Shown: positions 10,593 through 27,304 of the stretch, one piece after another
Position numbering within the stretch: the stretch's first letter is position 1
Layout of the letters: each line of letters begins with the position of its first letter
Virus record (IMG/VR): IMGVR_UViG_3300037427_001308
Coordinates: 1-27,304 of that record
Direction: 5' to 3' (one strand)
DNA from: a virus
Length of the DNA: 27,304 nt
Translations under genes and position numbers: made by a program
The notes under the pieces: generated by a model
Databases searched by the model: none
What the model was told of the DNA's origin: nothing
The model's input: the letters and a program-made list of their open reading frames with translations, nothing else

Positions 10593-10772
10593 ATGTCTCA
10601 TATGAGTCTGGAGAATTACTTCAGACTTAATTTTGCCCTCCTTCAATACCATAAATATAGCTTGACAGAGATTGAGAATATGATGCCTTGGGAACGAGAC
10701 ATCTATGTGGGACTTCTTCAACAACATCTTGAAGAGGAAAAACTAAAGCAACAGCAACAATCGAATGCCTAG
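10593..10772 (+). CDS. 51: gp51-like hub assembly protein (59 aa)
   Basis: A 59-residue helical protein (MSHMSLENYFRLNFALLQYH, then KYSLTEIENMMPWERDIYVG and LLQQHLEEEKLKQQQQ). The RLNFALLQYHKYSLTEIENM and PWERDIYV pattern is what cyanophage annotations call gp51 or baseplate hub assembly. It is far shorter than the T4 gp51 I recall (about 249), so strict equivalence is uncertain. It also looks like the short T part of G/GT tail assembly chaperones: helical, with a W-x-R turn, directly before the tape measure. It starts two bases after the gp26 stop and overlaps the next gene by eight bases. It may be made both alone (ATG 10593 or 10602) and as a -1 frameshift extension of gp26. Confidence 0.75.
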   Translation: MSHMSLENYFRLNFALLQYHKYSLTEIENMMPWERDIYVGLLQQHLEEEKLKQQQQSNA

Positions 10773-13647
10773 TAACAATAAAAATATAATAGGTAAATTA
10801 AGGCAAAGGTATGAGCCTCATATGCAGCTGTCTGCTAAAGTTGATTTAAATCATCAAATAATACATGAGGTTGAGAAGAAGTTAACAGATTTACCAAAGA
10901 TACATTCTACATTAAGTAAGTCTTTTGGATTACAAAAGAAAACTTTACGTCGAGTGATTGGATTGGAGTCTTTGCAATCTTCACTCCTCTTTCGAGTGAT
11001 TGGATTGGAGGAAGTAGTTACTGGAGATGCACGGAAGAAATTACAGGGTGAGAAACCAAAGAAGAAACCAAAGTTAATTAAAAGGAAATTTAGACCAGTA
11101 GGTGATGGTCCAGATTCTAATGATAGAGGTGGAAGTTATACTGATGGTGCTCGACAGAAAGTTAATATTAAAGATGATTGGGGTGATGTTGATGATGGTT
11201 GGAGTGGTACTTCAGGTAGAGATGGTGCTGATGGATTAGGTGCTGATGGATTAGGAGGTGCCGATGGTCTTGGTGGTGCCGATGGTCTTGGTGGTGCTGA
11301 TGGATTAGGTGGTGCTGATGGATTAGGTGGTGCTGATGGTCTTGGTACTGCTGGTACTGCTGGTACTGATGGTGCTGCTGCTGGTACTGCTGGTAGACCT
11401 GTTCAGATGTTAGATGGTCCTGGTGCTTTTGATAGAGATAGAGGATTCAGAAAGACGAGGATTAGGGCAGAAGATTTAAAGAGAGGTAGTTCTCAAGAAA
11501 CTATTGAGGATAGAATAGAGAGACTTGAAAGAAATGAAGAAGAATCAAAGGAAGCTGAGAAACATTCAGGAAGTATAGAACATATAGAAACTACAACTGG
11601 TGTTGATGCAGAGACTGGAGAACCATTAAGTGCTGAAGAAAGGAAGAGAAGATTTAGAATAAAAACTGGTAAGATTAAGGCAGAAGATATAAAGAGAGGA
11701 ACTGCTGTAGAAGGAGCAGAGGGAGCAGCAAAAGTTGCTGCTGATACTACAGGTGCAAGTGCTCTTGCTATTCGTAAAGGAAAACCAGATGTAACTGGTT
11801 CAGATCTTGTACCACCAGACGAAGAGGGTGAGCAAGTTGAAGGTGATAAACCAGAAAAGAATATTCTTAGTGGACTTGGTAAACATGTTTCAAAGATTGC
11901 TGATACAGTAGATTCTATCTACGAGACTTTACAAAGCCAGTTTAATGAGCAGAAGGATACTAAAGAAGATGCTCGTGTACAGAAAGAACAGAAAGATGCT
12001 GAGAAACAAGAAAAGAATTTAGAGAAAGGTGGTCTTGGTAAAGGTATAAAGGATACAGCAAAAAAAGTATTCAAACCTTTCATGAGTATTTGGGATAAGT
12101 TTGTTAATTTTCTAACAACTATCTTGGTTGGAAAGGTTGTGATGAAAATTTTAGATTGGTTTGGTAACCCTGAAAATGCAGACAGAGCGAAGTCATTAGT
12201 TAGATTCCTTAAAGATTGGTGGCCTGTTTTATTAGCGAGTGTCATGGCATTCATGCCAGCTTTGTTAGGAACAGGAGGGATGATTATAGGAACGGTTATA
12301 TTATTAGCTTGGGCTATTCCTAAGATTATTGATGCTGTTAAATGGGTGATGAACGTCCCCAATATGATAGGAAACTTTCTCAAAGGTGGTGCTAAAGATA
12401 CTGATAAGTTAGAGAAAGATTCTTTAAAGGAATTGGAATCTGAAACGAAAGGTCTTGACCCTACTGGTGGAGGGGAAGGAGGACAGGATCCTTTAGACCA
12501 AGCAAAGACAGAAGGTGGAGGAGAAACACCACCTCTGGAATTTGATAAGCAATCAGATTTACAGAAGGTTGAACCTGTTAAGATGAATGAAGGTGGATCA
12601 GTTCCAGGAAAAGGTGATAAAGATACCGTCCCTGCGATGCTTACTCCTGGTGAGTTTGTTATGTCGAAGGATGCTGTAGAAAAGTATGGTAGTAATACTT
12701 TAGCAGGTATGAATGCTGCTGCTGGTGGTACAAATGTTCCAACATTAGGTGCTGATGGTGGGGATGGGAAGAAGAATAAGAAGCAACCAAACTATATGAT
12801 TCCTCATTTTAGTGGTGGAGGAAAGGGTAAAGCTATTGATAAGTCTCATTATGGAACTTCAGGATATAGAATAGGTCAGATAATGCCAGATCAATATATT
12901 TATTCTAAAGATTCGTTCTACCATAAGATGGTAACTAAGGGTGATGAAGTAGTAGAGAATACAAAAAGTTTTACTTCAATTGGTGGTGCTATTGGAAAGC
13001 CTGATATGATAGAACACCAGAAGCAACTTGTTGGAGAGATACAAAAGGAAGATGGTTATGAGAATGTTAATATTATTGATGTTATGGAACGTGTGAATGG
13101 TAGAGGAAGACTTGTAGGTATGCCCGATGAAGTTCTTTATCCTATTCTTAATGCCAGTGATGCATATAAAGCAACTCAGTCAAAAATGAATGCAGCACAT
13201 AAGATTGATTTAGAATCAAGAGGATTTGGTGATGGTAGTAAGGGTTATTCAATGATGTATAATGGTGGTGGTTTAGTTCAACATTTAAATCAAGGTGGGT
13301 TAGTTCAGAACTTTAATGAAGGTGGTATGGTTCAGAATATGTTTGGTGGTGCTAAGAATGCCTTTAATATGCTTCCTCAAGTTAGAGCAGCAAAATGGTT
13401 GGGTAATAAAGCAAAGAATATCTTTAGTAAAGGAAAGGAATTTATTGGTAATGCCTTAGATAAATCTGCTAATATTCCTCCTCCCTCTACTGGGAATAAA
13501 GTAAAGATTCTTCCTCTTCCTGCACCAGGAGGTCCATCTACTTCAGAGGATACTACAGCTCCTCCAGGAACTACTATACCAACCTTTAGTGTGGTTCATC
13601 CTGGTAATAAGAGTTCAAAACAAAAGACATTGGGGATAACGAATTAA
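10765..13647 (+). CDS. large tape-measure-like tail protein 1 (960 aa)
   Basis: A 960-residue protein with tape-measure character, in the place where T4-like phages carry hub/tail-length genes (gp29 in T4). In order: a basic helical N-terminus with the repeat RVIGLE (two copies); a Gly/Ala/Asp tract (154-208); paired elements IRAEDLKRGS (233-242) and IKAEDIKRGT (304-313); and charged coiled coil (about 385-430). Next come MSIWDKFVNFLTTILVG (440-456) and a hydrophobic stretch (485-519). Then a GG-x-VPG-x-G-x2-DTVPAMLTPGEFVM-like motif (610-642), common in tape measures. Three nine-residue repeats beginning GG(L/M)VQ follow at 835-861. It may set tail length and help DNA passage. It overlaps gp51 by eight bases. 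Equivalence to gp29 is inferred, not shown. Confidence 0.7.
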   Translation: MPSNNKNIIGKLRQRYEPHMQLSAKVDLNHQIIHEVEKKLTDLPKIHSTLSKSFGLQKKTLRRVIGLESLQSSLLFRVIGLEEVVTGDARKKLQGEKPKKKPKLIKRKFRPVGDGPDSNDRGGSYTDGARQKVNIKDDWGDVDDGWSGTSGRDGADGLGADGLGGADGLGGADGLGGADGLGGADGLGGADGLGTAGTAGTDGAAAGTAGRPVQMLDGPGAFDRDRGFRKTRIRAEDLKRGSSQETIEDRIERLERNEEESKEAEKHSGSIEHIETTTGVDAETGEPLSAEERKRRFRIKTGKIKAEDIKRGTAVEGAEGAAKVAADTTGASALAIRKGKPDVTGSDLVPPDEEGEQVEGDKPEKNILSGLGKHVSKIADTVDSIYETLQSQFNEQKDTKEDARVQKEQKDAEKQEKNLEKGGLGKGIKDTAKKVFKPFMSIWDKFVNFLTTILVGKVVMKILDWFGNPENADRAKSLVRFLKDWWPVLLASVMAFMPALLGTGGMIIGTVILLAWAIPKIIDAVKWVMNVPNMIGNFLKGGAKDTDKLEKDSLKELESETKGLDPTGGGEGGQDPLDQAKTEGGGETPPLEFDKQSDLQKVEPVKMNEGGSVPGKGDKDTVPAMLTPGEFVMSKDAVEKYGSNTLAGMNAAAGGTNVPTLGADGGDGKKNKKQPNYMIPHFSGGGKGKAIDKSHYGTSGYRIGQIMPDQYIYSKDSFYHKMVTKGDEVVENTKSFTSIGGAIGKPDMIEHQKQLVGEIQKEDGYENVNIIDVMERVNGRGRLVGMPDEVLYPILNASDAYKATQSKMNAAHKIDLESRGFGDGSKGYSMMYNGGGLVQHLNQGGLVQNFNEGGMVQNMFGGAKNAFNMLPQVRAAKWLGNKAKNIFSKGKEFIGNALDKSANIPPPSTGNKVKILPLPAPGGPSTSEDTTAPPGTTIPTFSVVHPGNKSSKQKTLGITN
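10950..11010 (+). repeat. 19-base direct repeat inside the tape-measure gene
   Basis: TCGAGTGATTGGATTGGAG occurs exactly at 10950-10968 and again at 10992-11010, 42 bases (14 codons) apart. It encodes RVIGLE twice in frame. Exact identity at the DNA level suggests a recent duplication or conversion inside the gene. Confidence 0.85.
11224..11343 (+). repeat. tandem repeat encoding GADGL / GGADGL
   Basis: Two 15-base units (GADGL; 11224-11238 and 11239-11253) are followed by five 18-base units (GGADGL; 11254-11343), all in frame. Units come in two codon spellings, GAT-GGT-CTT and GAT-GGA-TTA, in paired blocks, as expected for stepwise unit duplication. Nine-base GTA repeats follow (from 11344). 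The tract is probably a flexible glycine-rich linker whose length can vary between relatives. Confidence 0.9.
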
Positions 13648-13648
13648 T

Positions 13649-15991
13649 ATGGCTTGGGCAGCATTAGGAAAAAAATTAGCAACTGGAATGGTTAAAGGTA
13701 AGGCAAAGAAGATTGCCACCGATAAGTTATTGAATCGAAAGAAAAAGAAAGAAGCTAAAAGACCATCCTTAGATGAACTTATTGCAGATGTGAGAGGTGG
13801 TGGAGCAGAACCATCAAAAGGTGGAGAACTTATGGTGCGTCCTACCACTTCTTTAGTTCCTAATCCTACAGGTGGTATTCAAAAACATACTGGCAATGAA
13901 GGTGAGTATGGTAGTATAGAAGATAATCTTATTAGAATTAAATCTAAAACTATATCTATTGATCAAGTATTAAAGGGTACTCTTGCTGCACAGAAGGCAA
14001 GGAAGGCAGACCAAAGGAAAGTAGCAGAGCAAGCAGATGCATCAGGAGCAGAATCAAAACTTGAAGGTAAGGGTAAGAAAAAGAAAGGACCAAACTTAAA
14101 AAGGTTTATACCTAAACCCATGATGAGTGCATGGGAAAAGTTAAAGAACTTTTTTACTACTATTGTTTTTGGTTATGTTGCTATACAATTACTACCTTTA
14201 CTTCCTGCATTACTTAAATTTGTTAAGGGGTTAGCTGCTTTTGTTGGATGGATTACTGATATTGGGTTGGGATTATTAACTGGTCTTACAAGTCTTATTG
14301 ATTGGGGATATAAACTTTATGATATGGGAATGGGATTGATAAAGAATCTTGTAGGTGAAGAGGGTGCAGAAAAGTTAGGGCAATTTATGGGAGTGATTAA
14401 GGATCTCTTTACGGGATTCTTAGTATGGAAAATTATCGGACAGAAAATATTTGAAGCAGTAACTAAGAGTATAACAAGAGCATTTAGAATTGCCAGAGTA
14501 ATAGTTAAGAGAGCAATTAAATTTGCTAAGAACTTTATTAAGAATGCAGTTAATTTTGCAAAGAATATAGCATCAAGGGTTGGTAAAAATTTGATGAATA
14601 TACCAGGAGTTAAGAATGTAGTTGGGAAAGTTGCTCAAGTAGGAGGTAATATACTTAAGACAGGTGCTAACATTCTTAATAAAGGTAAAGGATTGCTTAG
14701 TAATGTAGCAAGTAAAGGAGGGGGTGTTGCTAGTAAAGTAGCAAGTAAAGCAGCAGGTAAAGTTGGTGGAATAGCAGCGAAGATATTTGGTAAGGCAGCT
14801 AAGTTTATTGCTCCTGCTATTAAAACTGCAATGCCAGCAGTAAAAGGATTCCTTGGAAAGATTCCTATAATGGGACCTCTTATTGTAGGTATTGTTTCTT
14901 TAATATCAGGAGATCCTCCAGGTAAGGCTATCTTTAAGGCACTTGGTGCAGCATTAGGTGGAGCACTTGGAACCTTTATACCTATTCCTGTTCTTGGTAC
15001 ACTGATTGGTGAAACAATTGGTGTGTTTGTGGGTGAGTTATTATATTATCTGATTATAAAAAGAGATCCTAAAGCAGCATTTCAGTTCCTGAAAGATAGC
15101 TTCATGAAGATCTTTAATGTAGGAAAAAATATATTCCTATTCTTTAAGGATGGGTTTGGTAGGTTTATTAATACATTCCCAATGGTTAAGTTCCCTGCGA
15201 CGAGCATTGGGACAATGGTGGCTGATTTCTTAAGTATTAATCCCATCTATAAAAAATTATTAGAATGGGAAGTTCCTGATTGGAAAGTTATACCTAAAGC
15301 AATTAGAGGATTTTCTTTAGGTGGAATGTTAGATACTCTTCCTACTATACCAGAGATATTAGGAAAGATATTTAGTTTACATCCTTTGTTGAAAATGTTA
15401 GTTAAGGATGGAAAGGTAGAAGGTTTTCCTGCAGTTTGGCAGTTAATGAATCCTGTCTTTATGATTAAGCATCTGAAGGAATCATTCTTCCCATCTAAAG
15501 GAGGTGCAGGTTCTCCAAAAGTAACTGCAGTTACAGGTGGAGGAGGAAAGGTAGGTGGTGGGAAAAAAGAAGACAAAGAAGCAGCACAGTTAGAGAAGGA
15601 AAAGAAGATGGCAGAAATGAAAGAAAAGATTGGTGATGTAGCAGGTAAAGTTGGTGGGTTCTTTAAAAATATTGGTAAAGGTATTAAGAATATAGGTGGT
15701 AAGATTATAGAGAAACATCCTGCAGTAATGGCAGTGAAGGCTGCTAAGAATGCTATATCTCCTCCATGTAAGTGTGACCTTACACCAATAGATGTGAATG
15801 CTGTTTCTAAAAAGACAGATGATATTAGTACCTTTGCATCATATGAAGAAGGTGCAGAGGAAGAGATTGTTATTCCAATTCCATCTGCATCTGATGGATC
15901 CTCTGGAAATAAAGTGACCGATAGTAATCTGATACTTGTTGCTGCCAGTGGCGGTGCAGATTCTACTTTTGATTCTTTATACATCCGTTAA
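13649..15991 (+). CDS. large tape-measure-like tail protein 2 (780 aa)
   Basis: A 780-residue protein, one base after the previous gene. The N-terminal 150 residues are strongly basic (RKKKKEAKR and GKGKKKKG). At 158-175 MMSAWEKLKNFFTTIVFG aligns with MSIWDKFVNFLTTILVG of the preceding protein, so the two are probably paralogues. The middle is a long amphipathic region rich in Lys, Ala and Gly (about 270-400). It leads to a very hydrophobic segment (about 405-470, with GPLIVGIVSLISGDPPGKAI and GALGTFIPIPVLGTLIGETI). The C-terminus is acidic and less hydrophobic, with a CKC pair. Hydrophobic tape measures can enter the host membrane on injection. It is probably the gp29-type tape measure or its partner. 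A GTTAAATA box overlaps its stop. Confidence 0.68.
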   Translation: MAWAALGKKLATGMVKGKAKKIATDKLLNRKKKKEAKRPSLDELIADVRGGGAEPSKGGELMVRPTTSLVPNPTGGIQKHTGNEGEYGSIEDNLIRIKSKTISIDQVLKGTLAAQKARKADQRKVAEQADASGAESKLEGKGKKKKGPNLKRFIPKPMMSAWEKLKNFFTTIVFGYVAIQLLPLLPALLKFVKGLAAFVGWITDIGLGLLTGLTSLIDWGYKLYDMGMGLIKNLVGEEGAEKLGQFMGVIKDLFTGFLVWKIIGQKIFEAVTKSITRAFRIARVIVKRAIKFAKNFIKNAVNFAKNIASRVGKNLMNIPGVKNVVGKVAQVGGNILKTGANILNKGKGLLSNVASKGGGVASKVASKAAGKVGGIAAKIFGKAAKFIAPAIKTAMPAVKGFLGKIPIMGPLIVGIVSLISGDPPGKAIFKALGAALGGALGTFIPIPVLGTLIGETIGVFVGELLYYLIIKRDPKAAFQFLKDSFMKIFNVGKNIFLFFKDGFGRFINTFPMVKFPATSIGTMVADFLSINPIYKKLLEWEVPDWKVIPKAIRGFSLGGMLDTLPTIPEILGKIFSLHPLLKMLVKDGKVEGFPAVWQLMNPVFMIKHLKESFFPSKGGAGSPKVTAVTGGGGKVGGGKKEDKEAAQLEKEKKMAEMKEKIGDVAGKVGGFFKNIGKGIKNIGGKIIEKHPAVMAVKAAKNAISPPCKCDLTPIDVNAVSKKTDDISTFASYEEGAEEEIVIPIPSASDGSSGNKVTDSNLILVAASGGADSTFDSLYIR

Positions 15992-17446: not shown

Positions 17447-17710
17447 ATGACTATTAAACACGACTTAGATCATGAGGTCTATATTGACCCTAAAGATGGT
17501 AAGGAGCATACTAATCATGGTATGCACGAGTATACTAAGGAAGATTTAGAGAATTCTCATGCTTATTATGAGGAGTATCATAAGGGTGAGGAAGTAGATA
17601 GTAATGATGCCAAGATTAATGATTATCATACACGTCATGAGGATCAGCACTTAGAGATCTATTGTGATAATCATCCCGATGCAGATGAATGTAAGGTATA
17701 CGACGATTAA
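17447..17710 (+). CDS. His/Asp-rich small protein between gp27 and gp5 (87 aa)
   Basis: An 87-residue acidic protein with eleven histidines (5, 9, 21, 24, 27, 38, 45, 61, 64, 68, 76), two cysteines (73, 82) and many Asp/Glu. The elements DPKDGKEHTNHGMHEYTKED and DYHTRHEDQHLEIYCDNHPD stand out. I recall close relatives at the same position in other T4-like cyanophages, but no function. The His/Asp/Cys pattern suggests metal binding; the T4 spike tip (gp5.4) and gp5-type spikes are known to hold iron or other metals, so a spike-related role is possible but unproven. It starts eight bases after gp27, and its stop directly abuts the gp5 ATG. Confidence 0.78.
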   Translation: MTIKHDLDHEVYIDPKDGKEHTNHGMHEYTKEDLENSHAYYEEYHKGEEVDSNDAKINDYHTRHEDQHLEIYCDNHPDADECKVYDD

Positions 17711-20491: not shown

Positions 20492-23400
20492 ATGGCAGCA
20501 CAACAACAACCTACCTTTAATATTTTTGATTCTCCTACGAAAGAGGGGATAGATGTTGGATATATTTCTAGTGATAGAGGATATGTACAAAATGTTAATC
20601 TTTGTGAAGCCAATGAGTATGCTAAGGCAAATCCAGGAACAGTATTTATTGTTAAGAATAGGGATGTTGTAAAGTATCTTGGAATTAATTCACTCAATAC
20701 ATTAAATCCACAAGACCTTATTCCTGAAGGAGCTAATGAGTGTGCAGGTTATGAAGATTCGAGTATTGATGATGGTGATAACACTACAACCCTAACTGAT
20801 AAATCTTTTCTTCCTCCAACTGGTATAGAAATATTTCATAATCCAGGTAGTTGTAAATCAAGAGTAGCTTTTTATGGTGGTGGAGGAGTAGGTGTCCATG
20901 CAAATGCTATCATTGGTAATGATGGTGGAGTTCTGGCTGTTGATGTTGTTCGTGGTGGATTTGGATATAAGTATCCTCCACAGGTAGATGTTAAGGATAC
21001 TTGTAAGCAGGGTGTTGGGGTTGTAGCAAAGGCATATATTGATGAGGAATTAGAAGTTCTTCATTATTATGATGAAGATTTGGAAGTAGAAGAACCTGAA
21101 CTATGTGCTGATGATATTGCAGGGTTTGGTAGAAGATATAATGCTGCAGGAAAGGATGTAGGAGCGTGGGATCCTTCAGTATATAAGAGAGAATCAGAAA
21201 AAACTGATTATCAAAGAGCAGTTGAAGAATATAATAGGTTAGTTGCAGAATATACAAGACCTTGGAAGACTGTTAGGGATATAAAGGGTGCGGAGAGTCC
21301 TGTACAATTAAAACATATTATATGGACTAGTGGGGGTGGAACAACTAAAGAACAGTATGATGTTAAATGGACAGGTTATACTGCACCAGACAGTCTTTTA
21401 GTAGAAGATACTTTCCTTGTCTATACCGAGGGTGGAGGAGGACAGGGTAGGGTTACAGGAACAGGTTTACAATATACATTTACTTCAGCAACTGGATCAC
21501 ATAAGTTCTCTATAAAAGCAGAATCTTTTGTAAATAGGGCAGCAGCACAACCAGTAAAGATTAAGGTTAAACCTAATACAGTTTATAATGTAGCATCAAG
21601 TGGTAACTATGAAGGTATTAATAAAACTGAGCAAGGACTTCTTAAAGAATCTACTTTTGGAAAGAGGGGAACCGAACAAGATACAGGGACAGGTAAAACA
21701 ATTTTTGCAGACTTGATAGGTTCTGCAGATGATGATGATGACTTACAAATTAAAACTACATTAGGAAAGTTTATAGCAGGAAGTCCAATAGCTACAGGAA
21801 GGGGTCATGATAGTTGGGCAATAACTTATAAGTTAGAGGATTCTTCTGTTAATAATGCAAATGGAGGGTCTGGATCTGATACAGATAATTCAGAAGAGTA
21901 TTTGGGTGATGGATGGGGTGCGTTTATGAATAAGAATGCAATATCTCCTGTTCCTCCATCAGCTGTACCAGGTAGTGATCATGCTGGCGAAACTTTTATT
22001 TGTGAATGGGATGCAGATTTTCCTACTGATGGTGAGTATACCTTTAGAGGAGCATTTGATGGTGATGCAAATTATGGAGATTTTTATGTAGATAATGAGA
22101 AGATAGGTGAATTTAGCCGCTATGATGTAAAACCCATCAGTGTTATTCATAAAATTTATCAAAGAGGATTGCATACACTGAGGTTTGATTTAAAAAATAA
22201 TGCAATCATGAAACCCGTAGCTATTCAACCTACCATTTCAGATAACAATGTTAAGTTTGATGGTATGTTTGTAAAAGAAGGTAGTAATTATTTTTATTAT
22301 ATTGAAAAGGCAAATGATTTAGTAAGTATAGATTTTGAATTTCAGTGGGCAGAAACACAAGATAAAAAGATGACAGTAACTAAAGTTACTTTAGATACTG
22401 AAGATGAACCATTAGTATTTGATATACCTAAGTTGGAGGCTGAACCACCCGCATCTCTGCCTAATATTTCTATGTTAGCTCCTTGGGTAAAGAGTTACCA
22501 AGGTCAGGGTTTTACTAATTGGGTTAATAATTCTAACGTTGAATTTCTAAGAGCTTATGCTGTTTTTCCAGTTACTGATAATTCATTGAATGGTATAAAA
22601 CAAACAGGTAGATGGACTATTGATATTTCAACTCCAGGAACTTATACTCTTGAATTATCGTCAGATGATACTTCATCAGTTAGTTGGGATGGAAATTTTG
22701 TAGGTGATACTACTTGGGATGAATCACAATCTGGTCCAAAAGTATTTACTATTAATGATGTAACTGTAGGTAAGCATGAATTGAAAGGAGAGGTTACAAA
22801 TAATCCTGCCTATGGTAAATCTTGGTATAGGAATCCAGGAGGAATTGGATGGGTACTGAAGAATTCTGCAGGTCAGATAGTAAGAACCTCATTAGATGAT
22901 TTTAATACTGAATTACCTCAAGGATTTAGAGCAATTAGTTTTGATGTACAGAGACAATCTTATGATACTAATAAGATTATCTTTGAAGGGATGAATTTCA
23001 CTGCTACTGGTGATATACCAAATGATACAACTAGTAAACAGAATACTGTAGTTGAAGAAGGTGTTGCTTATAAACTATCTTATTTTGGTAGTGGTAGACG
23101 TACTTGTTTCTTTAAAGTGGAGTATGGTGGATTAGCGATTGGTCTTGATGATGATGGTGGTTCACGTACACCAAATCCTATTAGTGGTGACTTTAAAAAT
23201 AGTGGAGTATATGTAGGAGCAAATCTTCTTGTTACTGCATCTGAAGGAGAGTTCTATGAGCAAGATGGATCTTTCTATTACAAGGTAAGGAAGAGTAATC
23301 TTCAAGAGGATTTGGGTAAAGAAGGAAGTGGATATGAACCACAAGGAAACATTTTAAAGACAGGAACCTTTAAGGATGGTAAGAAATATCGTTTAGTTTT

Positions 23401-26400
23401 TGAGCAAGAACCTATAGGTCATCCAAGTCCTGAAATTAGAGACACTAGTATCTTTAATAATCAAAGTAGAATAGGTGACAATCATGACGATCAAATTTTA
23501 AATTTCCGTCCAGTGGTAGATAAGAATGAGGATGGTGGATACATCCTTGTACCTGATCCCAATGCATTGTTGGCAGCAAGAAATGCTAAACAACTATCTC
23601 CACCTAAGAAAGTATCTGCATATCCAGAACATATTGTGGCAGCAAGTATAGAGAAGAGGAGTGTTTTTAATACTATAGATTATATTGATAAAGCTAATAG
23701 ACCTTTATGGAAATTTCCTGCGACTGGAGGATTCTTAGGTAAATATGGTGTTGTACCTTTTGATACTGGTGTAACCTACGGAGGTAGTGGTAGTGTCCCA
23801 GATAGTGGAACAACAAATAAGAAATTCTCGAAAAAGTTTTGGGTCTTAGAGTACAGGTCAGCAAAAGGCACACATACCAAATACTATCGGAAGGAGCTGA
23901 TAGACTTAGAAACTGATGATAGATTTAAACATAATTACATAACATGGAATGATGATGGTAGCTTATTTGCAGTTCAGGATTTAAATGTAGTCCTAACTAG
24001 ACCTGGGGTAACACAAAATGTCAAAAGGGGTTCAGGTAATTATGGTCCTGGAACTTCTGGAGATTGGAAAGGACTAAGTGGTAATAGAAGAGGAGTCTTT
24101 CGTGAGAAGGCTTACAAGAGATTTGATAGAGAAAGTTATGCGATTTATGGTCGATATACTAAATCCAATCCAAGTATGTGGTTTAGATTGGAACAAGCAA
24201 CGCTAGCTGAGCTTAGTGGTACTACTACGGTTACTAATGATCCAGTAATATCTGGAGGTGCACAGGCTGGAACTCATACTATTGTATGGAGTAATGTAAC
24301 CTTCCCTGTAACTGCCAACTATAAAATTGAAATAAAAGTTGATGATAATGTAAGGTTGACGATTGGTGATCAAGTAAACATTTATAAGGAGGGCTTTACT
24401 TATGGACAACAGGCAACCACTTATGATAGTTTTGGATCTGCAGTTTCAGCAGTTAATGAAGGACAGTTTGGAGCGACAGGGAAGAGTACTTATACAGAAT
24501 TTATAAAGAGAGGAACTTATACAATCACAGCTGATTTAGAACAGATTCCTGGAGGTGTATTGGGATGGGATGCTGGTAAAAACTCTATGGTTCTTGGAGT
24601 TAATATTGAAACCGAAGTTGCATCAGCAGAGGTAATAGATGAATCTAAATCTTGGAATGAGAATCCAATGGGTGTTGCTATAAGTATTGACTCTCCTCTT
24701 CCTTTACCTCCTGTGTTTGCACTTCCTCCTATGGATGGTGAGTGTCCACCTAATCCTATTTGGCATACAAGATATCCTAATGCTAAAAATAAATGGAGTC
24801 CAGTCATAGGGTTCCCTTTCTGGAGTAAGTTCATGAACATGTATCCTCTTTCTCCTCTTCCTCCATTAGATGAACCTGGAACTGATGGAACAGGAGTTGT
24901 GTATACAAATGAATGGACAGTTGATTTACCTTATGATGGTGAATATGGTCTTAGAGGAGCAGTAGATAACTGGGGAAGAATATTAATAGATGGTATACCA
25001 TATCAGAGATATACTAATGAAGAATTATCATCCATAGATCCTTCAGGAATTGATAATCATACACTTGGAGATCCTGTTCAGAAAAAAGTACCATTAGCAC
25101 GAATTGGATTAACTAAAGGGGAACATACTATAACTGTTGAGGTAGAGAACTGGAAAAACTATGAGATACCAAGAACCTTTATTGATGAAAAGATTTTTAG
25201 TACACAAGATTGGCAGGTTCCTATACCAAAGAAAAAACAGTATGCTGATGTAGATTTTGATGTTAGTATTAAAACTTTATTGGGTGCTGGTATTGAAATT
25301 AAAGGATTGTTTGAACGTTCAAAAGATTATGGTGCTGATGGTATTGGACCTCCACCACCACCTGTGACATCAGAGGATACCTTCCGTGTTTATTGGCATG
25401 GTGTACCTGGTATGGAATTTAAATTTACTTCACCAGATGGATCGCATGAGTTTACATTTAAGGCAAGGGATTATCGAGAAGTAACACCAACTACTGAAGC
25501 ACCGATTCATGTTATACCTAATGTAGATTATACTGTCGTAGGAAGTTATAATGCAGATATTTTCTTAGGTGGAGATACAGGTAACGATGCTGTTGAGCAA
25601 GGACTTATCCCTGATAATCAATTTGGAACCAGACGACCAAAAGAAAAAGACACGGGAACAGGTAAAGCTATTTTTGTAGATTTATTGAGATCATCAAATG
25701 ATAACGATGATATGCAAGTTGAAGCTCAGTCGGGACGTTTTACAGCAGGTGCGGAGATTCCAATAGACGTTTCTGGTGATAGTTTCCACTTAACTTATAG
25801 GTTATCGGTTCCTGTTGAAGAGACCATACCTGCAACGAGTGACAGGTATAGAAATTTACATGATAAATTTACAAAGAGAGTTGAGAAAGGACGTGTTTAT
25901 GATGTAATTATTAACAGTGAGGGTAAATGGAGATTGACAGGTGAAAGAGCTGTTAATTCATCTACTATTACTTACATTGGATTAAACTCTTGGGATGGGA
26001 TTACTGTAACTAATAATGCAAAAAGACTTGCCTTTAAAGATGGTGGTGGTAATGATACTAATGGTTGGTTTGATATTGATAGTGTTACAGGAGGAACGGC
26101 AAAGTTTAATTCAGATGGTAAGTCTTTTGCTATTACAGGAAAAGATGTTAAGATTAAGCTTACCTATGGTTGGAATGACAGAACAGACATTGATGGTAAG
26201 GCATTAGATCAAATTAAAATTGGAAAAACAACATGGACTCAAACCAATAGCAAGAAAGGATCAGAAACTCATACTGTTACTTTAAGTTCAGGGTATCCTT
26301 TGGGTGGTGATGGTAGTAAACATTTCCAATTAAGAACTAAGGGTGATAATGTCATCGAGATGGAAGACCTTTGGGGTTGGGAAGGTGTTGGTGGTGGTGC

Positions 26401-27304
26401 TGATCTTGGTCCTTGGTTTGATGATGTTGTATGTGCTACCAGTGAAGGAAAGTTTTATGACATTCAAGGGAACACTGCTAAGTATGCTATTGGTGCTGAT
26501 GTTGAGACGACGGTGGTTAGGGATGGAGTTGAATATGTAGGTCCAAAATTATATAATTATCAACATGCTGCTTACGGTAAGTTTCTTAATAAGAAAGGTG
26601 TTTCTCCAGACTATCCAAAGATAGGTGGAGTGCATGAGGTAATCAATTATACATGGAGTAATGTTGATTTTGATGCGGATGGAGAATATGAATTCCATTT
26701 TGTGAATGATGCTCATGGTTCTCTTTATTTGGATGGAAAAGAACTAATTAGAGGTGCTTTTGATGATAAGGCTGGAGTTTCTGCTTTTGATCGTTTAAAT
26801 TTTACTATAGGACAGAGGAAAATCGTTTCTGTTACTAAAGGAAAGCATACAATAGCAGTTGCTCCTACAGGAAGATTGGGACAAAAAGATATATGGACTG
26901 ATGGTTTGTTTAGAAAACTTTCATCAGATTATTATAAGGGACAGCAAGCATGGGAGAATAATCCTTCTGCAATGGCAGTTAATATTACTCGAAAGGTTGA
27001 AACTTTTCCTCAAGAAGGAAGTGCTGAAGCAGCTGAGTTGAACCTTGGACCTGACTATTTCAGAAACAGGAAAGGTAAATCATGGGTTGAAAATCCTTTA
27101 GCAATTTCTGCTGCTTTAATACCCGCACCTTGTAAACAAGATGCTAAGGGTAAAGGAGTAGTAACAAGAGTGGAAATTATTGATCCTGGATGTAGTTTCC
27201 CACCTCCAGGTACTCCTACTGGAATTGGAACGTATCCAGTCATTTTAACTTGTCCAAGGATTACTGTTGTTGATCCTGGTATTAACTATAATCCAGGTTC
27301 TGGT
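20492..27304 (+). CDS. giant modular virion structural protein (at least 2271 aa, 3' end outside window)
   Basis: An uninterrupted frame runs from ATG 20492 to the last base (2271 codons; each line was read through with no stop). The start lies nine bases after gp5 and has a weak AAGGA at 20474-20478. The protein is beta-rich and low in Lys/Arg clusters, with many Gly, Asp, Thr and Tyr, as in tail fibre or baseplate appendage proteins. Visible modules: a G-x2-Y-x2-PP repeat (about 128-175); a 144-residue block (305-448) repeated at 1628-1771; and PA14-like beta-sandwich units (about 478-570, 700-790, 1258-1350, 1447-1555, 2031-2126). There is a proline linker near 1620 and a further DPG-x2-(Y/F) region at the edge. 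I know no specific T4 equivalent. Host-surface or glycan binding is a reasonable guess from the PA14-like fold only. Confidence 0.9.
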   Translation, partial: MAAQQQPTFNIFDSPTKEGIDVGYISSDRGYVQNVNLCEANEYAKANPGTVFIVKNRDVVKYLGINSLNTLNPQDLIPEGANECAGYEDSSIDDGDNTTTLTDKSFLPPTGIEIFHNPGSCKSRVAFYGGGGVGVHANAIIGNDGGVLAVDVVRGGFGYKYPPQVDVKDTCKQGVGVVAKAYIDEELEVLHYYDEDLEVEEPELCADDIAGFGRRYNAAGKDVGAWDPSVYKRESEKTDYQRAVEEYNRLVAEYTRPWKTVRDIKGAESPVQLKHIIWTSGGGTTKEQYDVKWTGYTAPDSLLVEDTFLVYTEGGGGQGRVTGTGLQYTFTSATGSHKFSIKAESFVNRAAAQPVKIKVKPNTVYNVASSGNYEGINKTEQGLLKESTFGKRGTEQDTGTGKTIFADLIGSADDDDDLQIKTTLGKFIAGSPIATGRGHDSWAITYKLEDSSVNNANGGSGSDTDNSEEYLGDGWGAFMNKNAISPVPPSAVPGSDHAGETFICEWDADFPTDGEYTFRGAFDGDANYGDFYVDNEKIGEFSRYDVKPISVIHKIYQRGLHTLRFDLKNNAIMKPVAIQPTISDNNVKFDGMFVKEGSNYFYYIEKANDLVSIDFEFQWAETQDKKMTVTKVTLDTEDEPLVFDIPKLEAEPPASLPNISMLAPWVKSYQGQGFTNWVNNSNVEFLRAYAVFPVTDNSLNGIKQTGRWTIDISTPGTYTLELSSDDTSSVSWDGNFVGDTTWDESQSGPKVFTINDVTVGKHELKGEVTNNPAYGKSWYRNPGGIGWVLKNSAGQIVRTSLDDFNTELPQGFRAISFDVQRQSYDTNKIIFEGMNFTATGDIPNDTTSKQNTVVEEGVAYKLSYFGSGRRTCFFKVEYGGLAIGLDDDGGSRTPNPISGDFKNSGVYVGANLLVTASEGEFYEQDGSFYYKVRKSNLQEDLGKEGSGYEPQGNILKTGTFKDGKKYRLVFEQEPIGHPSPEIRDTSIFNNQSRIGDNHDDQILNFRPVVDKNEDGGYILVPDPNALLAARNAKQLSPPKKVSAYPEHIVAASIEKRSVFNTIDYIDKANRPLWKFPATGGFLGKYGVVPFDTGVTYGGSGSVPDSGTTNKKFSKKFWVLEYRSAKGTHTKYYRKELIDLETDDRFKHNYITWNDDGSLFAVQDLNVVLTRPGVTQNVKRGSGNYGPGTSGDWKGLSGNRRGVFREKAYKRFDRESYAIYGRYTKSNPSMWFRLEQATLAELSGTTTVTNDPVISGGAQAGTHTIVWSNVTFPVTANYKIEIKVDDNVRLTIGDQVNIYKEGFTYGQQATTYDSFGSAVSAVNEGQFGATGKSTYTEFIKRGTYTITADLEQIPGGVLGWDAGKNSMVLGVNIETEVASAEVIDESKSWNENPMGVAISIDSPLPLPPVFALPPMDGECPPNPIWHTRYPNAKNKWSPVIGFPFWSKFMNMYPLSPLPPLDEPGTDGTGVVYTNEWTVDLPYDGEYGLRGAVDNWGRILIDGIPYQRYTNEELSSIDPSGIDNHTLGDPVQKKVPLARIGLTKGEHTITVEVENWKNYEIPRTFIDEKIFSTQDWQVPIPKKKQYADVDFDVSIKTLLGAGIEIKGLFERSKDYGADGIGPPPPPVTSEDTFRVYWHGVPGMEFKFTSPDGSHEFTFKARDYREVTPTTEAPIHVIPNVDYTVVGSYNADIFLGGDTGNDAVEQGLIPDNQFGTRRPKEKDTGTGKAIFVDLLRSSNDNDDMQVEAQSGRFTAGAEIPIDVSGDSFHLTYRLSVPVEETIPATSDRYRNLHDKFTKRVEKGRVYDVIINSEGKWRLTGERAVNSSTITYIGLNSWDGITVTNNAKRLAFKDGGGNDTNGWFDIDSVTGGTAKFNSDGKSFAITGKDVKIKLTYGWNDRTDIDGKALDQIKIGKTTWTQTNSKKGSETHTVTLSSGYPLGGDGSKHFQLRTKGDNVIEMEDLWGWEGVGGGADLGPWFDDVVCATSEGKFYDIQGNTAKYAIGADVETTVVRDGVEYVGPKLYNYQHAAYGKFLNKKGVSPDYPKIGGVHEVINYTWSNVDFDADGEYEFHFVNDAHGSLYLDGKELIRGAFDDKAGVSAFDRLNFTIGQRKIVSVTKGKHTIAVAPTGRLGQKDIWTDGLFRKLSSDYYKGQQAWENNPSAMAVNITRKVETFPQEGSAEAAELNLGPDYFRNRKGKSWVENPLAISAALIPAPCKQDAKGKGVVTRVEIIDPGCSFPPPGTPTGIGTYPVILTCPRITVVDPGINYNPGSG
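21404..21835 (+). repeat. duplicated protein block, copy 1 (residues 305-448 of giant protein)
   Basis: This begins EDTF and ends AITYKL, with TFTSATGSHKFSIKAE, TEQGLLKESTFG and DTGTGKTIFADL (397-408) inside. The last 52 residues align without gaps with copy 2, with 25 identical by hand count. The DNA has diverged, so the duplication is old. Confidence 0.85.
21923..22200 (+). repeat. PA14-like module with FMN-SP leader, copy 1
   Basis: Residues 478-570 of the giant protein: FMNKNAISPVPP, then EWDADFPTDGEYTFRGAFDG, a DFYVDNEKI strand and RGLHTLRFDLKN. The order W...DGEY.(F)RGA.D...(Y)(V)D...G.HT matches the other copies and resembles PA14-type beta sandwiches. Confidence 0.7.
24830..25153 (+). 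repeat. PA14-like module with FMN-SP leader, copy 2
   Basis: Residues 1447-1554: FMNMYPLSPLPP, EWTVDLPYDGEYGLRGAVDN, RILIDGIPY and KGEHTITVEVENW. It parallels copy 1 (478-570) and copy 3 (2031-2126) in the same motif order. Confidence 0.7.
25373..25804 (+). repeat. duplicated protein block, copy 2 (residues 1628-1771 of giant protein)
   Basis: This begins EDTF and ends HLTYRL, with KFTSPDGSHEFTFKA, VEQGLIPDNQFG and DTGTGKAIFVDL (1720-1731). It has the same length (144) as copy 1 and the same offset to the DTGTGK motif, with compensating gaps in the first half. It follows a Pro-rich linker. Confidence 0.85.
26582..26869 (+). repeat. PA14-like module with FMN-SP leader, copy 3
   Basis: Residues 2031-2126: FLNKKGVSPDYP, YTWSNVDFDADGEYEFHFVN, SLYLDGKEL and KGKHTIAVAP. 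This is the most PA14-like copy (DGEY...LYLDG...KGKHTI). A W-x3-NP-x-A element follows at 2154, as after other copies. Confidence 0.7.

Follow-up and report, generated by a model that had tools for sequence, protein, structure and literature searches.

The DNA analysed here, hereafter the window, comprises an entire IMG/VR virus record of 27,304 bases, which itself stops at base 27304 and is a fragment of a T4-like marine cyanophage ending inside a giant gene. Its closest DNA matches were Synechococcus and Prochlorococcus myoviruses, and it carries genes for a ThyX-type thymidylate synthase, PhoH, an exonuclease, gp32, gp53, gp48, gp4, a tube protein and gp26. Downstream of gp26 follow two large ORFs, a conserved tail protein, CP12, gp5 and the giant ORF (Table 1), and this gene order from gp26 onward is identical in the phages S-SM2 and Bellamy. 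The CP12 gene lies inside the hub operon, between the tail-protein gene and gp5, and likewise does so in S-SM2, S-SM1, S-SSM7 and S-SCSM1.

Table 1. Positions of the giant ORF, its modules and neighbouring genes in the window.
Feature	Position	Strand	Evidence or remark
Two large ORFs upstream of the tail protein	10765-13647 and 13649-15991	+	weak tape-measure family matches
CP12 gene (Calvin-cycle regulator)	17447-17710	+	Pfam E=1e-6
gp5-like baseplate hub/central spike protein, 923 aa	17711-20482	+	phrog_33098 E=5e-143; phrog_1922 E=4e-44; Pfam Gp5_OB E=8e-5; tblastn to cyanophage gp5
Giant modular hub-associated protein (putative), 3' end cut by record end	20492-27304	+	2271 codons, ATG start; phrog_32965 E=1e-230
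N-terminal domain, residues 8-79	20513-20728	+	single copy in each family member whose 5' end is intact; absent from the gp5s tested
GY1 module, residues 124-184	20861-21043	+	common to the C-terminal part of gp5 in phages without a giant
B module copy 1, residues 278-459	21323-21868	+	family profiles
PA14-type module 1, residues 472-590	21905-22261	+	no Asp-Asp at motif position; alignment A2 profile matches 6qdi_A, E=3.5e-6
PA14-type module 2, residues 664-805	22481-22906	+	Asp-Asp (DD) present; family profiles
PA14-type module 3, residues 1255-1404	24254-24703	+	DD present (VDDN); Pfam PA14 E=2.2e-5, 24.7 bits (cutoff 24)
PA14-type module 4, residues 1426-1576	24767-25219	+	DN at motif position; family profiles
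B module copy 2, residues 1625-1772	25364-25807	+	family profiles
C/D modules, residues 1794-2001	25871-26494	+	up to three repeats in relatives; family profiles
PA14-type module 5, residues 2010-2165	26519-26986	+	DA at motif position (DD in most relatives); slice matches Pfam PA14, E=0.0023
GY2 start, residues 2213-2271	27128-27304	+	rest of GY2 and CTD of ~90 aa beyond record end

The giant frame contained no stop codon up to the last base of the record, for which the chance is about 6e-82 given the base composition of the stretch, and the remaining five reading frames across it contained 95-361 stops each. A preliminary description of this DNA had pointed to a single frame open for 6.8 kb to the window edge directly after gp5, and both observations were confirmed, the giant starting only 9 nt beyond the stop of an ORF with a 'baseplate hub and tail lysozyme' match. 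The absence of an enzyme motif, also remarked upon there, was in agreement with our search of NCBIfam, in which no enzyme family matched the giant at E≤0.1. The last 110 residues aligned to 14 relatives at points 157-402 residues short of their stops, from which a full length of about 2430-2670 aa can be estimated by extrapolation; the missing part is expected to end near ...SNDPRLNIPGTPDNLT. Once the missing part is counted, the protein would exceed in length each of the 53 other full-length family members that bear an array (1209-2269 aa). Compared with its nearest relative, designated L026, the giant was 68% identical, with a dN of 0.22 and a dS of 0.45 (a rough estimate), and the lower dN is consistent with purifying selection. 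The corresponding dN/dS ratios of the giant, gp5 and the tail protein were 0.49, 0.37 and 0.22, but as dS differs between these genes the ratio was dropped as a sign of fast evolution and retained only in support of a real coding gene.

Profiles built from window segments and their relatives resolved the interior of the giant into five PA14-type modules, two B modules and one C/D block, confirming the modular build proposed from the letters, and at least three module types are present besides PA14. The whole protein passed the Pfam PA14 model (PF07691) with E=8e-12 and 45.7 bits against a curated cutoff of 24, and PA14 chains were recovered from the PDB by profile, so that the PA14 or carbohydrate-binding matches named beforehand as support for adhesion were indeed found. 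Module 3 exceeded the Pfam cutoff by itself and the other four PA14 modules were found through the family profiles; for each of the five, the profiles of its four counterparts, or of most of them, also recovered it. A PDB search with the single giant sequence returned nothing, whereas the family profiles matched 6qdi (3.5e-6) and, more weakly, the RTX protein 36gk (0.008) and the adhesin 6m8m (0.34, weak). A beta make-up of the giant is suggested solely by this relationship to the PA14 family. In characterised PA14 lectins a tandem Asp-Asp (D-cis-D) holds the sugar-binding Ca2+ (PMC6650083). In the window, modules 2 and 3 have this pair and modules 1, 4 and 5 lack it; across the family, it was found in all 18 rows of type 2, in 86 of 104 rows of type 3 (16 of the other 18 being gaps) and in 36 of 56 rows of type 5, and rarely in types 1 and 4. 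PKD domains, a further accessory module of the array, occurred in 10 of 40 C-terminal halves of relatives (alignment A3). Our literature search found no report of PA14 in phage baseplates.

The giant belongs to a known family, phrog_32965 'virion structural protein' (full profile E=1.4e-230). Among isolates, relatives were found at the same place in S-SM2 (SSM2_017, 1424 aa), Bellamy (gp17, 1993 aa) and SynMITS9220M01 (405 aa), and further ones in two single-cell viral genomes and in dozens of marine contigs. Contrary to the preliminary description, the protein is thus not easy to miss, since the S-SM2 and Bellamy members already bear the annotation 'virion structural protein'; this RefSeq label appears to be a transferred annotation, and the GenBank version of the S-SM2 gp5-neighbour reads only 'PA14 domain-containing protein'. 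A search of viral contigs with the giant protein alone returned no relatives, whereas a relative used as query, followed by an alignment, yielded 291 stretches, of which 80 loci were kept. A gp5 ORF was located immediately upstream of 84 of the 89 family ORFs that have the N-terminal domain, with gaps mostly of 11-56 nt. Of the five exceptions, three had an ORF of 635-927 aa in the gp5 slot. Two loci showed an interrupted gene. At L093:9974-15547, the giant is split by one in-frame stop into frames of 1098 and 753 residues, with the N- and C-terminal domains both kept, and at L036:2124-7164 the C-terminal domain lies in another frame overlapping the end of the main ORF, which points to a frameshift, to a split gene or to an error in the assembly.

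The ends of these proteins were constant and their interiors were not. All 54 full-length family members start with the N-terminal domain and GY1 and end with GY2 and the CTD, and between GY1 and GY2 we counted 36 distinct module architectures, including that of the window. Protein length correlated with module number (r=0.84), and relatives with 76-77% identical N-terminal frames differed in length by up to 470 aa. SynMITS9220M01_016, the 405-aa relative, consists of the N-terminal domain, GY1, GY2, the CTD and a proline-rich Gly-Tyr tail, and has no array. Thus, the constant ends, the variable interior and this array-free relative place the array at a fixed site between GY1 and GY2. For the window protein itself the CTD is extrapolated from the family, as the record ends first. 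Profiles of the frame and the CTD gave no credible match in the PDB.

The same frame was found at the C-terminus of gp5 in phages without a giant. GY1 was located in the C-terminal half of gp5 of the giant-less phages P-SSM2, P-TIM68, S-B43, ACG-2014f and S-SSM7, the GY1 HMM giving E-values of 5e-23 for S-B43, 4e-22 for P-TIM68, 5e-21 for P-SSM2, 9e-21 for ACG-2014f and 2e-11 for S-SSM7, as well as 1e-16 for S-SCSM1. In S-SSM7, P-TIM68 and S-SCSM1, which have no giant, GY1, GY2 and the CTD form the gp5 C-terminus in the order seen in the giant family. A CTD model made from giants only scored 34.9 bits on the gp5 of S-SCSM1, 17.4 on that of S-SSM7 and 14.8 on that of P-TIM68, against a maximum of 8.9 bits in 1000 shuffles of each gp5; taken in isolation the match is strong for S-SCSM1 and weak for the other two. 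Independently made libraries linked the two groups in both directions, as S-SCSM1 gp5 matched positions 1865-2021 of phrog_32965 (E=3e-25) and the C-terminus of a relative of the giant matched phrog_1922 (gp5) at 849-910 (E=3e-5). Six of the ten cyanophage records searched contained the CTD, at one place each, with a model that includes gp5 examples, and S-B43 gave one further weak match (E=0.04). It was on gp5 itself in S-SSM7 and P-TIM68 and on the gene right behind gp5 in S-SM2, Bellamy, SynMITS9220M01 and a 208-kb contig (L074). The gp5 of P-SSM2, S-B43 and ACG-2014f stops at a Val-Ile-Asp-Cys motif, where the CTD would start. Furthermore, the S-SSM7 gp5 (L103) carries an Ig-like Big_5 domain at residues 619-731, between GY1 and GY2 (E=5e-12), which suggests that gp5 accepts insertions at the site where the giant has its array.

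The giant is not itself a gp5, as it has no Gp5_OB domain and the Gp5_OB match falls on the preceding ORF. The window protein displays GY1 and the start of GY2, and the complete gp5-type tail of GY1, GY2 and CTD is found at the family level. By the domain-fusion argument, the giant would be a partner of gp5 in the hub. The S-SCSM1 gp5 record carries the mark 'virion protein', and 45 proteins of this phage have been detected in purified virions by mass spectrometry (PMC9602691). In the article texts searched, no virion proteomics of a giant-bearing phage was found. A search of seven genomes for a PAAR protein capping the spike gave none, which says little since the S-SM1 'PAAR motif' gene was also missed.

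Given a conserved frame equivalent to the gp5 tail, the adjacency to gp5 and a PA14 array, all of them established at the level of sequence, the giant is best read as a detached and expanded gp5 tail serving as a baseplate-hub adhesin; from this we infer its virion location, docking to gp5, fold, glycan binding and any effect on host range. In the mechanism that we consider probable, the part made up of GY1, GY2 and the CTD, elsewhere the C-terminus of gp5, would here have become a separate gene right behind gp5 and would have acquired, between GY1 and GY2, a long array of PA14-type and further modules that changes fast. At the tail tip, the frame would dock the giant to gp5 or to the hub, and the array would reach outward and bind glycans of the cyanobacterial envelope, in a Ca2+-dependent manner in those PA14 copies that keep Asp-Asp. 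A receptor-contacting role would fit a protein in which the frame is fixed and the array fast-changing. The preliminary suggestion of a very large baseplate appendage agrees at the sequence level with the PA14 modules and with the frame in common with the gp5 C-terminus, and as an interpretation it is supported in part.

The main rival is a free-standing fibre or a wedge-attached appendage, in which the GY modules would be general baseplate blocks and the adjacency to gp5 a matter of operon order only. GY modules do recur in other giant baseplate-region proteins: GY-type modules matched phrog_1922 positions in several other very large proteins, one of them the 6180-aa S-SM1 frame at T4-GC 969, reported in S-SM1 virions (PMC3037559), and GY also matched several wedge-subunit families. 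A tail-fibre gene is moreover located nearby downstream in relatives of the giant locus. As GY by itself does not place the giant at the hub, the hub placement rests on the ordered frame and the CTD; the former has the same GY1-GY2-CTD order as gp5, and the latter was seen a single time in each genome that has it, always on gp5 or on the immediately following gene. We therefore regard a fibre or wedge attachment as unlikely.

Rather more improbable is a structural or spacer role for the array, with degenerate PA14-like modules that bind no glycan. Three of the five PA14 modules in the window have no Asp-Asp, as is the case for types 1 and 4 in most of the family, but almost every family copy of types 2 and 3 has retained the pair, and the array composition varies much faster than the frame, as expected of parts that contact a receptor.

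The least probable reading, a head (capsid) decoration protein, follows the 'head and packaging' class in PHROG and the 'major head protein' name in RefSeq, in that phrog_32965 and phrog_773 bear head labels and match the giant, and is hardly credible because the S-SM1 'major head protein' SSM1_226 (T4-GC 1038, 703 aa) lies near psbA/psbD and not near gp5, the true S-SM1 gp23 is a different gene apart from it, SSM1_226 has only internal module stretches in common with the giant, and the frame of gp5 type, together with the neighbouring gp5 gene and the hub operon, points to the tail. Membership of the giant in phrog_773 was rejected on the same grounds of internal matches and of an S-SM1 member near psbA. 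The S-SM2 record labels the gp5-neighbour as T4-GC 1038, 'similar to S-SM1 protein', and the 'head protein' label on the family looks like an annotation transfer; likewise, 'major head protein' on the PA14-bearing phrog_773 and on SSM1_226 of NC_015282 looks like an annotation error. In a 2010 comparison of T4-like cyanophages, a PA14 carbohydrate-binding domain was among the Synechococcus-enriched genes, the region near gp5 was a variable hot spot, and T4-GC 969 was the only one of those enriched genes whose product was named as detected in virions (PMC3037559); for this last reason, that the giant is part of the virion is something that we infer.

Of the known proteins, S-SM2 SSM2_017 and Bellamy gp17 resemble the giant most fully, in their position right after gp5, the N-terminal domain, GY1, the PA14, B and C kinds of module and synteny, whereas the window giant is longer and has a module order of its own, identity to these isolates being 32-40%. 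SynMITS9220M01_016 shares the N-terminal domain, GY1, GY2, the CTD and the place directly after gp5, but has neither PA14 nor any other array, and its proline-rich Gly-Tyr tail resembles that of S-SSM7 gp5. The gp5s of S-SCSM1, S-SSM7 and P-TIM68 (phrog_1922) have the C-terminal GY1-GY2-CTD in common with the giant family; in them a single chain joins the frame to the Gp5 OB part and there is no PA14, whereas the giant forms a chain of its own that has the N-terminal domain and lacks OB. To the PA14 lectins of RTX and yeast adhesins (MhPA14, MpIBP PA14, Epa1) there is similarity at the profile level, and Asp-Asp in two of the five giant modules, but the giant is a phage protein with several diverged copies and its sugar binding is predicted only. 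The 'evolved' Dit proteins of siphophages are tail-tip scaffolds with inserted carbohydrate-binding modules, and the giant would work alike, with glycan-binding-type modules in a tail-tip scaffold. Dit is, however, an unrelated protein of non-contractile tails and Gram-positive hosts, whereas the scaffold proposed here, a gp5 tail, belongs to a T4-like phage with a contractile tail and carries a much longer array.

The family itself is already known; what is new here is the frame shared with the gp5 tail. Little is known of host recognition by marine T4-like cyanophages, and for the largest proteins near gp5 the available labels are just 'virion structural' or a misleading 'head'. Equivalence to the gp5 tail assigns the family to a definite site, the hub, and offers a test, Ca2+-dependent glycan binding by PA14 modules 2 and 3, for which the array-free 405-aa relative and the fused gp5 forms are natural controls; it also suggests that the head label of phrog_32965 be corrected. 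As a broader proposal, with arguments about evenly balanced, one lineage of T4-like cyanophages may have turned the gp5 tail into a separate gene and thereby into a plug-in site at which lectin-like arrays are gained, lost and shuffled, forming a hub-mounted receptor-binding system apart from the tail fibres.

Further upstream in the window, the first of the two large ORFs behind gp26 (10765-13647) carries GADGLG-type repeats and was the least conserved gene in the comparison with L026, with 42% identity, the genes between it and the giant being 61-87% identical.
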